Shown: positions 3,302-9,959 of the stretch, in pieces | Layout: each line of letters begins with the position of its first letter | How positions within the stretch are numbered: position 1 is the stretch's first letter | Source of the DNA: Aquabacterium sp. | GTDB lineage: Bacteria > Pseudomonadota > Gammaproteobacteria > Burkholderiales > Burkholderiaceae_C | Assembly (NCBI RefSeq): GCF_016234775.1 | Contig: NZ_JACRAH010000021.1 | Coordinates: 1 to 64,000 of the forward strand | Reading direction: 5' to 3' | Length of the DNA: 64,000 nt | Made by a program: the position numbers and the translations under genes | Notes under the pieces: model-generated | The model's input: the letters and a program-made list of their open reading frames with translations, nothing else | Told to the model about the DNA's origin: nothing | Database searches by the model: none

Positions 3302-4834
3302 TCACACCCGAAACACGGTTACAGACTGTGCGAGCCGTTGCGCCTGATCTCTCAAGCTCTCCGCAGCGGCCGCCGACTGCTCCACCAGCGCCGCATTCTG
3401 CTGCGTCATCTGATCAAGCTGCGACACCGCGCCACTGATCTGAGCAATGCCGTCACTCTGCTCCAGACTACCTGCGGTGATTTCCCCGATGATGTCCGTC
3501 ACACGCTGGACACCCGCCACGATGTCGCTCATGGTCGATCCCGCATCCGCAACGAGTTTGGACCCCGTCTCCACCTTGTCCACGCTGGCGCCAATCAAGG
3601 CCTTGATTTCCTTCGCGGCCTCGGCGCTGCGCTGAGCCAGCGATCGGACCTCTCCGGCTACCACCGCAAATCCCCGCCCCTGCTCACCCGCACGAGCGGC
3701 CTCCACGGCCGCATTCAGCGCCAGAATATTGGTCTGAAACGCAATGCCATCAATCGTCCCGATGATGTCGCCGATGCGGCGGCTGGACTGATTGATGTCC
3801 TCCATCGTCGACACCACCTGAGATACAACCTCGCCACCGCGCATGGCCACGGATGCCGCCGACTCAGCGAGTTGATTGGCAGTCCGTGCTGATTCGGCCG
3901 AGTGACGCACCGTACCTGTCAACTGCTCCATGGACGACGCAGCCTGCTGAAGGTTGGAGGCCGTTTGTTCGGTTCGCTGACTGAGATCGGCATTGCCCGT
4001 CGCCACTTCGGCACTGGCCACCTGGATGCTGTCTGCCGTCTGGCGAATGTCCCCCACCAGCATCGCCAACGAGGTTCGCATATCGGTCAGAGAGGACATC
4101 AACTCACCCAGTTCGTCATGCCGATCTGCAACCGGTCTATCAGACAGATCACCATCTGCAATCGCCTTGGACAGCTCGCCAGCCTGACGCAAACCGGTCA
4201 TCACACTGCGCGTGGTCCACATCATGATGAGCAACATGCTCCCGGCCAGCAAGCAGGCTACGACAACGGCCAGAACGGCCGACTGGCGGTTCTCGATGAC
4301 GGCATGTTCATAGGTAGCCTTTGCACCAGCCTCCTGCAAAGGAATCGCTGCCTGCAAATGTTTGATGAATGCCTTGTGCGCAGTTGGCCAAGCCGTCTGC
4401 AACAGATCATCCACGCGATTGCGATCACCAGTGTCGTAGGCCTTGTCCAACGCATCCAGCATCGACACAACCGTTGGCCACCCCTCACGCAACTGCTTCA
4501 ACAGCGTGCCATGCTCGTCATTGGTAGCCGACTGGGTTGAGGCCTGGGCCCAGGCTTCATCAACCAGTTTGCGAACCTGCCGCAGGTGCGTCAGATTGCC
4601 TGGCGCCGCGTATTGGTCGAGCAACAAGCCCGCAGCACGGGCCCGCACAGAACTGAGCGAACCATCAATGCGCTGAAGCGCCACCAATGGCTTCACACTG
4701 CCTTCCAGCATGGCCTCCAGCGCGCGCCCTCCCCGCTGCACCCCCAGCAAGGTCAGTACGGCAAGCAGCACCGCCCCGACAACGGCCACCAAGGCTGCGA
4801 ATCGCAACCTGGCGCGAATAGTCAAGTGACTCAT
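3302..4834 (-). CDS. Methyl-accepting chemotaxis protein, transmembrane
   Basis: This is a classical inner-membrane chemoreceptor of 510 residues. It has TM1 (about 11-30), a periplasmic four-helix-bundle ligand domain, TM2 (about 185-206), HAMP (about 207-260), and a cytoplasmic signalling hairpin with the conserved tip [20 protein letters not shown]. The start at 4834 is chosen because GGAGGG lies 6 bp upstream of the ATG for [10 protein letters not shown]. An ATG 42 bp further out lacks such a site. There is no NWETF-type C-terminal pentapeptide for CheR/CheB tethering (it ends AQSVTVFRV). The ligand cannot be told. The gene lies 48 bp downstream of the rhodanese gene on the same strand, and I saw no sigma-28 box in that gap. 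Confidence 0.93.
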
Positions 4835-6269: not shown

Positions 6270-7472
6270 ATGAACGCTCCCGTGTCGATGCCCCATGTGA
6301 TGCCCACCTACGGCCGCCTGCCGATTGCGCTATCGCACGGCGAAGGCGTGCGCGTCTGGGACACCGATGGCCGACGCTATCTGGATGCGCTCGCGGGCAT
6401 CGCGGTCAACACCCTGGGCCACAAGCATCCCAAGCTGGTCCCCGCCCTGCAGGATCAGGTCGAGAAGATGATCCACTGCTGCAACTACTACCAGGTGCCG
6501 CTGCAGGAGGAACTCGCCCGTCTGCTGGTCGAGCGTTCGGGCATGACCAATGTCTTCTTCTGCAACTCAGGTCTGGAAGCCAATGAGGCCGCCCTGAAGA
6601 TCGCGCGCAAGTTCGGCCACGACAAAGGCATTCACCGCGCCGAGGTGGTGGTGTACGAAAAGGCCTTCCATGGCCGGTCGATTGCCACGCTGTCGGCCAC
6701 GGGCAACCCCAAGGTGCACGCCGGCTTCGAGCCGCTGGTCGAAGGTTTCGTGCGCGTGCCGCTCAACGACATCGCCGCGCTGGAAGAGGTCGCCCGCACC
6801 CGTCCCAATGTCACCGCCGTGTTCCTGGAAGTGATCCAGGGCGAAGGCGGCATCAATCCCGCCCGCGCCGAGTACCTGCAGGCCGTGCGCGCCCTGTGCG
6901 ACAAGCAAGGCTGGCTGCTGATGCTCGACGAGGTGCAATGCGGCATGGGCCGCACCGGTAAGTGGTTTGCCCACCAATGGGCTGGCATCCAGCCCGACGT
7001 GATGCCCCTGGCCAAGGGCCTGGGCTCTGGCGTGCCGATTGGTGCTGTGGTCTGCGGCCCCAAGGCCGCCAACGTGCTGCAGCCCGGCAACCACGGCACC
7101 ACCTTTGGCGGCAACCCGCTGGCCATGCGTGCCGGCGTGGAAACCATCAAGATCATCGAAGAAGAGCAATTGCTGGCCAATGCCGACCGCATCGGCAAGC
7201 ACATTCATGACGCACTGGTTCGCGAACTGGGCGAGCTCAAGGGTGTGAGCGAAATCCGTGGCCAAGGCCTGATGATCGGCATCGAGCTGGACCGCCCGTG
7301 CGGCGTGCTGCTGCAACGCGCGGTCGATGCCGGCCTGCTGCTGAGCATCACCGCCGACAAGGTCATCCGCCTGCTGCCGGCTTTGATCATCACTGCGGAA
7401 GAAGCTGACGAGATCGTGGCCACCCTGGTGCCCCTGGTCAAGACCTTCCTGTCTGAAACAAGCGCTGCTTAA
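6270..7472 (+). CDS. argD: Acetylornithine aminotransferase
   Basis: ArgD is a PLP-dependent class III aminotransferase that converts N-acetylglutamate semialdehyde and glutamate to N-acetylornithine and 2-oxoglutarate in arginine synthesis. The 400 residues show the class III pattern: FFCNSGLEANEAALK (about 96-110), AFHGRS (132-137), LDEVQCGMGRTG with Asp220, and the PLP lysine Lys249 in MPLAKGLGSGVPIGA. Length and motifs fit ArgD well. AstC of arginine catabolism is similar in sequence, but the adjacent argF favours biosynthesis. The gap to argF is 18 bp, so the two are surely co-transcribed. A hairpin with a U-tract sits in the leader. Confidence 0.93.
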   Translation: MNAPVSMPHVMPTYGRLPIALSHGEGVRVWDTDGRRYLDALAGIAVNTLGHKHPKLVPALQDQVEKMIHCCNYYQVPLQEELARLLVERSGMTNVFFCNSGLEANEAALKIARKFGHDKGIHRAEVVVYEKAFHGRSIATLSATGNPKVHAGFEPLVEGFVRVPLNDIAALEEVARTRPNVTAVFLEVIQGEGGINPARAEYLQAVRALCDKQGWLLMLDEVQCGMGRTGKWFAHQWAGIQPDVMPLAKGLGSGVPIGAVVCGPKAANVLQPGNHGTTFGGNPLAMRAGVETIKIIEEEQLLANADRIGKHIHDALVRELGELKGVSEIRGQGLMIGIELDRPCGVLLQRAVDAGLLLSITADKVIRLLPALIITAEEADEIVATLVPLVKTFLSETSAA

Positions 7473-7490: not shown

Positions 7491-8423
7491 ATGAAGCCCG
7501 GTATGAGCCTGATCAAACACTACCTCCAGTTCAAGGACCTGCGCGAACAGGAGTACGTCTACCTGTTCGAACGGGCGGCCATCATCAAGAAGCGCTTCAA
7601 GAACTACGAGAAGTACACGCCGCTGGTAGACCGCACCCTGGCCATGATCTTCGAGAAGGCTTCCACGCGCACCCGCGTGAGCTTTGAAGCCGGCATGTAC
7701 CAGATGGGCGGGTCCGTGGTGCACCTGACCACGGATGGCAGCCAGCTGGGCCGCAGCGAACCGATTGAAGACAGCGCCAAGGTGATCTCGCGCATGGTCG
7801 ACATCGTGATGATCCGCACCTACGAGCAGTCCAAGCTGGTGAAGTTTGCCGCCAACTCGCGTGTGCCGGTCATCAACGGCCTGACCAACGAGTACCACCC
7901 CTGCCAGATCCTGGCCGACATCTTCACCTACATCGAGCACCGTGGCTCGATCAAGGGCAAGGTCGTGGCCTGGGTAGGAGACGGCAACAACATGGCCAAC
8001 ACCTGGCTGCAGGCTGCAGAGATCCTGGGCTTCACGGTGCATGTGAGCACGCCCAGCGGCTACGAGATCGACCCGGCCGTGGCCGGCATCAACGACACCA
8101 GCTGCTACAAGGTCTTCAAGGACCCGATGGACGCCTGCCGTGGTGCGCATCTGGTCACCACCGATGTGTGGACGAGCATGGGCTTCGAAGCCGAGAACGA
8201 AGAACGCAAGAAGGCCTTTGCCGACTGGTGCGTGGACGCCGACATGATGGCCGTGGCCGCACCCGATGCCCTGTTCATGCACTGCCTGCCGGCGCACCGT
8301 GGCGAAGAGGTCGAGGCCGACGTGATCGATGGCCCGCAATCCGTGGTGTGGGACGAGGCTGAGAACCGCTTGCACGTGCAGAAGGTACTCATGGAGTACC
8401 TTCTGCTGGGGCGCATTGGCTGA
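7491..8423 (+). CDS. argF: Ornithine carbamoyltransferase
   Basis: ArgF joins ornithine and carbamoyl phosphate to give citrulline. The 310 residues carry the carbamoyl-phosphate site FEKASTRTRVSFE, the EYHPCQILAD loop, and the ornithine-site HCLPAHRGEEV. Translation may start at 7491 (MKPGMSLIKHY) or at the internal ATG 7503; neither has a strong ribosome site. The last codons are odd: the stretch coding VQKVLMEYLLL uses GTA, CTC and CTT in a gene that otherwise prefers G/C-ending forms. It forms a 13-bp perfect palindrome. This tail is duplicated after the stop codon at 8526-8585. Confidence 0.95.
   Translation: MKPGMSLIKHYLQFKDLREQEYVYLFERAAIIKKRFKNYEKYTPLVDRTLAMIFEKASTRTRVSFEAGMYQMGGSVVHLTTDGSQLGRSEPIEDSAKVISRMVDIVMIRTYEQSKLVKFAANSRVPVINGLTNEYHPCQILADIFTYIEHRGSIKGKVVAWVGDGNNMANTWLQAAEILGFTVHVSTPSGYEIDPAVAGINDTSCYKVFKDPMDACRGAHLVTTDVWTSMGFEAENEERKKAFADWCVDADMMAVAAPDALFMHCLPAHRGEEVEADVIDGPQSVVWDEAENRLHVQKVLMEYLLLGRIG
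8364..8423 (+). repeat. Direct repeat copy A (argF 3' end)
   Basis: This 60-bp direct repeat covers the last 19 codons and the stop of argF. It matches copy B (8526-8585) at 57 of 60 positions. Inside it, GCAGAAGGTACTC (8378-8390), loop ATG, and GAGTACCTTCTGC (8394-8406) form a perfect 13-bp hairpin. Confidence 0.95.
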
Positions 8424-8525
8424 AGGCCAATGTGAACCTGGGCCGACAGGCCCGCAAGCGGTTCCGGCGAAGGCTCACATCACGCCAGTGATGTGAAGCC
8501 GCCGAAGGCGGCGGGCCGTAGCCAA
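8424..8525. repeat. Hairpin-rich spacer between argF-tail repeats
   Basis: The 102 bp between the two repeat copies is packed with inverted repeats. GGGCC/GGCCC pair at 8440-8444 and 8449-8453. TCACATCAC/GTGATGTGA form a perfect 9-bp stem with a 4-nt loop (8475-8496), extendable by GGC/GCC past one bulge. GCCGCC/GGCGGC pair at 8498-8512. GCAAGCGGTT (8454-8463) is the reverse complement of the first 10 bases of both flanking repeats. No protein is coded. It looks like a small structured, possibly mobile, repetitive element, but no second copy of it is visible in the window. Confidence 0.7.
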
Positions 8526-8585
8526 AACCGCTTGCACGTGCAAAAGGTACTCATGGAGTACCTTTTGCTGGGACGCATTGGCTGA
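8526..8585 (+). pseudogene. Duplicated argF 3' end (copy B), remnant
   Basis: These 60 bp would still encode the last 19 residues and stop of ArgF but have no start or upstream gene body. The three differences from copy A are all synonymous: CAG to CAA, CTG to TTG and GGG to GGA. The first two are a compensating pair that keeps the 13-bp hairpin perfect: GCAAAAGGTACTC (8540-8552), loop ATG, GAGTACCTTTTGC (8556-8568). It ends 6 bp from the stop codon of the convergent chemoreceptor gene. Confidence 0.85.
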
Positions 8586-8591
8586 CCGTAT

Positions 8592-9959
8592 TCAGAACCG
8601 ATAAGCCAGGCGCAAGCCACCCCAGTGCTTGCCAGCAACCGTGATCGGTGCGGCCACTTCCTTGAGCAGCACGAACTTGCCGCCTCCCATGTCGCGGCGA
8701 TAGGTCTGCAGCAGGAACGGGCGCTTGTTGCGCGCCGAAGCCAGGCCTGTGCGGTCATTGAAAATGCGACGCCAACGTGAATTGGCGGTGTTCCACACCA
8801 CATCGCCCGGCCTTTGTAGCTGGCAGTAGATGTGGTTGTGCGTAGAGATATAGCCGTTGCGATCCGCCGCAATGCAGAAAACCACGTCCGGCAGGGCCTT
8901 GATCGCTTCTTCCTGTATGGCGGGAAACAGTTCGTCCGTCAGCGCATTGAAGCGTGTGGCGTGCTGCTGAGGTTGCGTGCCGGCCATGGCCTGGTAGTTC
9001 TCATCGAACAGATGCTCCAACGAGATGCGCCGAGATGCCACGGCCGCTTCGAGCGTGGCGGCGATCTTGCCCGCGGTCAGCTGCACGAGTTCGATGTAGG
9101 GCGTGTCCGACGTACGCACGCCAGAGCCCGCAATCATCTCCATCAGGCGCTCGGATACGGTCAGCACGGCATCGCTGCGCTTGAATGCAGCAGATAGCTC
9201 CTGGCGAGCCTTGCCCACCTCACCCTCCATGAGGCTGACTTCCTGATTCACACTCTGCGTCAACGCGCGGCTCGCATCGGCGGCGGCACTGATGCGTTGA
9301 ACACCCTCTTCCACGCCATGCAAGGCCGCATGAAAGGTCCTGCGACCTTGCTCGTGCTTGGCCGAGCCATCAGCCTGATCGGTCAAGTCGCTGGCCAGCG
9401 ATTGAATACGTTGATCGAGTTGCCCGATCGTGCTCATGATGGCCTTGGAAATGGACTCAACCTGGGTGGACAGATCCTTCACGGCATCCGCCACAACAGA
9501 GAAACCTGCGCCGGCTTCACCAGCACGCTTGGCTTCAACGGACGCATTGAACGCCACCAACCGCGTCTGCAAGGCCACCTGGGTAATCTGCTGAGCGGCA
9601 TCGGACACCTGATGCAAGGTTTCGACCACACCGCTGACTTCCCGGCCCACGTGGGCCACCGATTCGCGCGCCTGCTGCATGGAGGCCATGCCGCCAACGG
9701 TCTCGGCGTGAATCTGATCCTGCGAACGAACGATGTCGTGCAGCTTGGCCACGAGGCTGGCCAGGGTTTCGGTCTGGTGATTGGCCACCGCCGTGGTGTC
9801 TTCCAGGCTGCCACGCAATTGCGCTGCCTCGCAGCCTAGCCCGCTGGTGTCACGCTCTAGCGTCTCTGCCAGTTGAATCAACTCCAGATTCATCGCGGAC
9901 GCAGGTTCAGGCTTGATCACGTCAGCCTCTACCGGCTTGCGATTGAACAACTTGAACAT
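8592..9959 (-). CDS. Soluble chemoreceptor with C-terminal sensor domain
   Basis: This 455-residue protein has no transmembrane segment and the reverse of the usual receptor order. A short MCP signalling region comes first (tip about residues 130-157, ALQTRLVAFNASVEAKRAGEAGAGF), then a helical linker. A C-terminal Cache/PAS-like domain from about 340 contains VVFCIAADRNGYISTHN and RNKRPFLLQTYRRDMGGGKF. Such cytoplasmic receptors occur in Beta-proteobacteria, and the ligand is unknown. It starts 31 bp downstream of fliA and is probably the last gene of the flhBAFG-fliA transcript, which fits a flagellar or chemotaxis role. The start at 9959 (MFKLFNRKPVEAD) has no close alternative. Confidence 0.85.
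   Translation of the reverse strand: MFKLFNRKPVEADVIKPEPASAMNLELIQLAETLERDTSGLGCEAAQLRGSLEDTTAVANHQTETLASLVAKLHDIVRSQDQIHAETVGGMASMQQARESVAHVGREVSGVVETLHQVSDAAQQITQVALQTRLVAFNASVEAKRAGEAGAGFSVVADAVKDLSTQVESISKAIMSTIGQLDQRIQSLASDLTDQADGSAKHEQGRRTFHAALHGVEEGVQRISAAADASRALTQSVNQEVSLMEGEVGKARQELSAAFKRSDAVLTVSERLMEMIAGSGVRTSDTPYIELVQLTAGKIAATLEAAVASRRISLEHLFDENYQAMAGTQPQQHATRFNALTDELFPAIQEEAIKALPDVVFCIAADRNGYISTHNHIYCQLQRPGDVVWNTANSRWRRIFNDRTGLASARNKRPFLLQTYRRDMGGGKFVLLKEVAAPITVAGKHWGGLRLAYRF

Follow-up and report, generated by a model that had tools for sequence, protein, structure and literature searches.

The doubled 3' end of argF in Aquabacterium sp. exemplifies a small, folding repeat that is widespread at the ends of housekeeping genes in the Burkholderiales. 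We consider it likely that the region is a small structured repeat that was inserted into the 3' end of argF and replaced its tail, with the means of its movement unidentified. By computation, we establish a family of core sequences, their fold, their recurrence at particular genes, the duplication of gene tails, a pairing between gene codons and an arm of the element that we call X, and the mostly synonymous divergence of the tails. All coordinates refer to the forward strand of the window, by which we mean the whole 64,000-nucleotide stretch of DNA that was analyzed (contig NZ_JACRAH010000021.1). Descriptions of small bacterial repeats usually place them between genes. The present element seems to change the 3'-terminal sequence of argF, metK, ftsW, and other housekeeping genes, and this would account for unusual codon choice and tandem repeats at the ends of genes throughout a bacterial order. 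The two tail copies of each event would be a record in which the donor and recipient ends can be read directly, and the element provides a natural setting in which to test how DNA that lacks an enzyme of its own can spread.

The argF tail is duplicated downstream of its stop codon

argF, a listed open reading frame at 7491 to 8423, encodes an ornithine carbamoyltransferase of 310 amino acids that exceeds the cut-offs of two NCBIfam models (NF001986, E = 1.2e-139; TIGR00658, E = 5.7e-107). A repeat search pairs the final 19 codons and stop codon of the gene (tail copy 1, 8364 to 8423) with an untranslated sequence past the stop (tail copy 2, 8526 to 8585). The two 60-nt copies are spaced 162 nt apart and are 95% identical (57/60), and a codon comparison gives 17 identical, three synonymous, and no nonsynonymous pairs. 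Both the repeat and the silent character of its three differences had been claimed in a preliminary description of this DNA, and both are confirmed. The perfect 13-bp hairpin that it placed in each copy is likewise recovered, as inverted repeats of 100% identity with a 3-nt gap (8378-8390/8394-8406 and 8540-8552/8556-8568). Hairpin 1 (8378 to 8406) lies within argF and has an ATG loop; its counterpart in copy 2 (8540 to 8568) is also perfect and bears a paired change from G-C to A-T. The two opposed differences reported in the palindrome are therefore present, and three random differences in 60 sites would strike both sides of at least one of 13 pairs with P = 0.022. Taken by itself, the paired change is modest evidence.

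The argF 3' region has a strong predicted fold that crosses the stop codon

The region from 8350 to 8600 folds at -140.2 kcal/mol (z = -9.1), and none of 200 dinucleotide shuffles folds as well; the fold of the region as a whole is not a chance product. The predicted fold has four parts, namely, a stem and three hairpins. The stem, 11 bp and exact, joins an arm within argF codons (x', 8364 to 8373) to the X arm (8454 to 8463). X reverse-complements the beginning of the argF tail, emerges from the repeat search and the fold, and is backed by codon covariation at related loci. Beyond hairpin 1, hairpin 2 (8414 to 8432) has a 7-bp stem with arms at 8414 to 8420 and 8426 to 8432, and its loop contains the stop codon of argF. 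Hairpin 3 (8440 to 8453) lies in the intergenic linker, and hairpins of different sequence are seen by eye in the same place in genomes G003 and G019. The core of the dispersed element (8459 to 8529) is defined by two covariance models and by covariation over 109 distinct copies; its ends overlap the X arm and the second tail copy. The preliminary proposal of a maintained fold is upheld in substance, but the fold is not confined to hairpin 1: it continues beyond the stop codon and takes in part of the 3' flank. The stop-spanning hairpin, the stem between argF codons and the 3' flank, and the repeated core were missed in the preliminary description.

By eye and without a terminator scan, no T run follows hairpin 1, 2, or 3 or the core, and we rejected an intrinsic terminator for lack of such a run. 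No Rfam family reached its gathering score between positions 7000 and 10000 of the window, where the sole match (Chlorobi-1, over part of the core) scored 19.4 bits against a gathering score of 50, and no family matched seven element loci at E ≤ 0.5.

The core belongs to a family dispersed across the Burkholderiales

We built covariance models from six aligned copies of the core (R1) and from thirteen (R2). The genome that contains the window has three core copies in total, the other two at C26:5812-5881 and C16:242547-242619. At E ≤ 0.01, R1 found matches in 7 of the 42 genomes in the genus, with G010 giving only a weak hit. R2 matched at least 159 of 399 genomes of the family, in 68 of 141 genera, at E ≤ 1e-4, and at least 89 of 399 genomes of the order, in 48 of 159 genera, at E ≤ 1e-6. 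The family and order searches scored 12 candidates per genome, so these counts and the copy numbers are lower bounds. Several genomes carry tandem core copies with periods specific to the locus (for example, 89, 157, and 160 bp). A repeated, possibly mobile, sequence, one of the options raised in the preliminary description, is thus real and widespread, except that its dispersed part is the core between the tail copies and not the tail. The 60-bp tail itself has no further copy in the window's genome, the next matches having E ≥ 0.4.

The family is united by a covarying two-hairpin fold. Our alignment, with 109 distinct copies among 113 matches drawn from 100 sources, covers only part of the fetched loci and was fitted to the covariance model, which favors the pairing figures. 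Within it, 97.6% of core cells form standard pairs, compared with 32 to 41% when the partner is slid, and changes on both sides of a pair number 317, compared with 87 in shuffles. Outside the outer arm, G-U combinations exceed A-C combinations by 61 to 3, with one pair giving 46 of the 61. Because of this excess, we infer that the folding form is the forward strand in a single-stranded state, most simply RNA, with single-stranded DNA as the other option. The nearest neighbor of a core lies at the same gene in another genus in 62 of 95 cases (permuted mean, 17; maximum, 30). Such likeness is expected of gene-specific lineages and fits homing and old vertical inheritance with loss alike.

Gene tails are repeated around the core at several housekeeping genes

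We collected 125 loci from genus, family, and further genome searches and classified each by the motif near its core. The largest named classes are the 5' side of lepA, in antisense (23 loci), metK (22), argF (19), and ftsW (16), followed by glmS, proB, and a flavin-reductase-like gene (4 each) and cysH (3); another 30 loci adjoin other genes. One example each of argF, metK, ftsW, and cysH, and also of proB and sucC, scored above its NCBIfam cut-off; a glmS fragment scored below it, and the lepA label rests on a start motif only. Against a null of pairs from different genes, the upstream tail recurs on the 3' side of the core with a score beyond the 99th percentile at 58 of the 125 loci. The repeat is frequent at ftsW (14/16), argF (15/19), glmS (3/4), proB (3/4), and cysH (2/3), is found at half of the metK loci (11/22), and occurs at one of the four flavin-reductase-like loci and 9 of the 30 others. 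It does not pass this threshold at the remaining 67 of 125 loci, including all 23 of lepA. Among 20 high-scoring loci from other families of the order, 15 exceed the same threshold, for which the null was not recomputed, and some of these are whole tandem units. At ftsW loci, the second tail copy runs on into the next gene, which follows closely and which we take, from its position, to be murG.

Several loci depart from this arrangement. The 23 antisense cores upstream of lepA lack tail duplication, and at the five lepA-class loci that were printed (e.g., L208, L228, and L250), an A run follows the core, so that the other strand resembles the end of an intrinsic terminator. At one of the two additional copies in the window's genome (L157, C16:242547-242619), the cysH frame extends 50 nt into the core and the element encodes the last CysH residues; a similar read-in of the gene frame is seen at L192. 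By eye, the core at L312 (G501:C1:142325-142393) apparently lies inside mpl and not at a gene end, where a hairpin made of the mpl-like gene's own codons and their inverse copy precedes it. At L101 (UWPOB_BURK1, about 3560 to 3700), the second argF tail is broken by another GC-rich palindromic stretch.

Codons of the host gene covary with the element

At argF and ftsW loci, the X base opposite the Glu wobble position tracks the choice between GAA and GAG in 31 of 37 cases (Fisher P = 5.5e-5). X likewise matches the AAC/AAT wobble of Asn at 35 of these 37 loci and, at 31 of them, the initial base of Arg codons (38 loci were tried, and L167 was left out for lack of a pattern match). Complementarity between X and the upstream tail exceeds the 95th percentile of a null at 41 of 121 loci, comprising 15/22 at metK, 11/19 at argF, 7/16 at ftsW, 3/3 at glmS, 1/3 at cysH, 1/23 at lepA, and 3/27 at other genes, with none of four at either proB or the flavin-reductase-like gene. 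The pairing fails at the other 80 of 121 loci, including 24 of 27 at other genes and all four of proB. The final 24 nt ahead of the core, which hold the proB stem, fall outside this test; at three of the four proB loci, a perfect 15-bp stem joins the tail to the stretch past the stop, across the stop codon. Between X and the downstream copy of the tail, complementarity shows just a slight enrichment (16/125; 5% expected).

We compared 22 argF loci with the element to 111 without it. Hairpin 1 has a median of 12 of 13 pairs with the element and 9 without (P = 9e-7), which bears out the earlier suggestion of a maintained fold. Stop-spanning stems (6 versus 3) and P1 stems (9.5 versus 5) are also longer with the element (both P < 1e-6); within the genus, the P1 stem is not significantly longer (5 versus 34 loci, P = 0.095). 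For G019, G003, and UWPOB_BURK1, which are counted as having the element, a short core was assigned by eye and was unreported by the genome model searches, and L015 reached only 23 bits in model scoring. Duplicates were removed (L148 = L018, L149 = L035, and L187 = L084). The loci are phylogenetically nonindependent, which makes the P values optimistic. L086, an Acidovorax argF end (3366 to 3469), has an 11-bp stop-spanning stem and 12 of 13 hairpin 1 pairs with no core detected; it was placed among the loci without the element despite its stems, since no core was found on its short contig, and it may be a remnant or have a diverged core.

These patterns could also belong to a host RNA of the 3' untranslated region that controls stability, processing, or the end of translation and is inherited with its gene, under selection and with little mobility. 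The sense orientation at many housekeeping gene ends, the strand-specific G-U bias, the gene-specific core lineages, and the codon-level covariation would all be at home in such an RNA. Its patchy presence within the genus and the locus-specific tandem arrays would not, nor would the placement of the element between ftsW and the closely following gene, the core apparently within an mpl-like reading frame (by eye), or the imported-looking tails (G019 and the synonymous excess, described below). We regard a purely host-inherited RNA as rather unlikely, while noting that a host function and mobility can coexist.

The upstream tail is probably the newcomer

We compared the codons of copies 1 and 2 at 55 loci, of which 17 with a score below 44 were not counted and one (L182) was set aside because the gene was not found. 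The remaining 37 loci have 118 synonymous and 14 nonsynonymous codon differences, with synonymous and nonsynonymous counts of 55 and 4 at argF (16 loci), 33 and 9 at metK (9 loci), and 30 and 1 at ftsW (12 loci); the chance expectation is 25 to 37% synonymous. This excess suggests that both tail copies were coding until recently. The cut-off of 44 removes decayed relics from the count, and constraint from the fold could be a partial source of the excess. In arrays (e.g., L161, L252, L263, L268, and G019), copy 2 is part of the next unit and not a bare relic.

The translated tail of G019 differs from the window's at 10 of 60 positions and its untranslated second tail at 3 of 60, with gene bodies 92.5% identical over the 293 bp available. 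Within G019, the first two tails are 13/60 apart, and the second is 2 to 3/60 from the tails of other species. In two congeners compared at 57 sites, copies 1 differ by 6 and copies 2 by 4, with crosswise differences of 7 to 12. G013, which has the element, and G009, in which none was found, have identical tails and a body identity of 92.1%. These data are most simply read as arrival of the upstream tail together with the element, the downstream tail being the older end. In the window, we accordingly infer from the repeat and the synonymous excess, here and at related loci, that the translated copy (8364 to 8423) arrived with the element and that the untranslated copy (8526 to 8585) is the former end of argF. 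The preliminary idea that a repeat rebuilt the gene end gains support here, as the tail looks imported.

A local tandem or target-site duplication would dispense with any import: a hairpin repeat inserted near the end of argF would have doubled 35 to 60 bp of host sequence, and the copies would have diverged in place. At a number of loci, the repeat does run from the core boundary to the stop codon, the copies in the window are only 3/60 apart, and some pairs are nearly identical (L161, L268, and L223). However, an untranslated copy drifting in place should gather nonsynonymous changes, and the mostly synonymous divergence of the tails (only 4 nonsynonymous differences against 55 at argF) therefore speaks against a target-site duplication of this kind. 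The first two tails of G019, far apart from each other with the second close to the tails of other species, are also at odds with it, and we judge a local duplication improbable.

Template-switch mutagenesis during replication could have made perfect a quasi-palindrome that is encoded by the amino acids QK[AV]LMEYLLL, and paired changes could then arise without selection for the fold. A loop of 3 nt is well suited to such switching, and even where the element is absent, argF tails pair at 4 to 13 of 13 positions. Hairpin 2, the X arm, the covariation of the core, and the higher pairing beside the element are left unexplained by this process, which is a poor candidate for the region as a whole; as the origin of the perfect palindrome in hairpin 1 alone, it is not excluded. 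A decayed second argF gene, suggested only by the argF sequence of the second copy, can be dismissed, since just the last 60 bp are present, the same arrangement of core and tail recurs at other genes, and no longer second copy of argF was seen among the argF loci listed.

A proposed mechanism of gene-end replacement

Returning to import of the tail with the element, we propose a unit that would comprise, from 5' to 3', a substitute argF tail (with the x' arm, hairpin 1, and the stop codon in hairpin 2), a short linker, X, and the two-hairpin core. The unit would insert just before the old argF tail, at a target whose start resembles GANAA (by eye, from listings). The incoming tail would supply the full C terminus of the protein, and the old tail would stay behind as an untranslated relic. 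Repeated insertion may then produce tandem arrays whose period varies by locus. Movement of this tail-linker-X-core unit between the same gene of different strains or bacteria, with replacement of the gene's 3' end, is inferred; it could proceed by recombination within the tail that both copies share, by uptake of DNA, or by a recombinase that is unidentified. By eye, the X arm seems to be a copy of the upstream tail; together with the GANAA-like target start, this hints at fold-back copying at some stage. We advance only tentatively, and with somewhat less than even confidence, the fuller picture of minimal mobile units without a protein of their own, whose fold is partly host coding sequence and whose recoded tail is gene specific, which home to their gene, swap its last codons, and set its codon choice. 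If it is true, the element and not the host determines which synonymous codons stand at gene ends.

Without a dedicated recombinase search, we saw no integrase, circle, or movement. We compared transposases of the Y1 type and reverse transcriptases between 30 of 35 genomes with at least 5 hits and 19 of 20 genomes listed as element free, and in the window's genome. Y1 transposases occur in 19/30 and 13/19 genomes, respectively, and are absent in 5 of 8 genomes with at least 12 hits, giving no consistent tie to the element. Reverse transcriptases lean toward element-rich genomes (15/30 versus 4/19) and are absent from the window's genome and from 4 of 8 genomes with at least 12 hits.

Relation to known repeat systems

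No description of this element was found in the open-access literature that we searched, and our claim of novelty reaches only that far. REPs, integron attC sites, Rickettsia palindromic elements, and gene-end-restoring islands share only single traits with it. Some integrative elements use the 3' end of a gene as an attachment site that the insert restores. They resemble the present element in supplying a replacement tail and leaving the native tail downstream, a likeness that our data support indirectly, through divergence patterns. Unlike them, this unit of about 90 to 160 bp has no room for an integrase gene, has an RNA-like fold, and uses several target genes. Rickettsia palindromic elements are palindromic repeats that enter reading frames as in-frame insertions; here, in contrast, a hairpin encloses the stop codon, and the element includes the gene tail. 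The integron attC site is a folded recombination site with arms that vary in sequence, but by eye, our element has no attC-type R boxes. REP and REPIN sequences, with their Y1-type RAYT, are likewise short dispersed hairpins near genes, and REPs usually exceed 100 copies per genome, according to the part of the source available to us (PMC2817692). Of the present element, the window's genome has three copies, with counts in the family and order searches capped at 12 per genome. It differs from REPs in its recoded gene tail, its longer fold, and the lack of a link to Y1 genes.

The closest parallel in size, tandem habit, and hosts is the Beta-proteobacterial repeat element, or BRE (Hot et al. 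2011, PMC3110155). In the portion of that report available to us, BRE is described as a tandem repeat of about 90 bp with variable copy number, reported from Bordetella and Polaromonas, that is mostly intergenic in Burkholderiales, including Comamonadaceae, overlaps the ends of some open reading frames, and is suspected of mobility. The words "duplication" and "stop codon" are absent from its main text. R2 at E ≤ 1e-4 matched none of 15 genomes of the Bordetella genus set and neither of two Polaromonas genomes, with no positive control within these sets. Apparently, then, our element is not the published BRE, with the caveat that the BRE sequence itself was not compared. In a Bordetella-group genome (L195), an 82-bp GC-rich tandem repeat without the core motif, by eye, lies downstream of lexA; it fits BRE by place and size and is possibly the published BRE.
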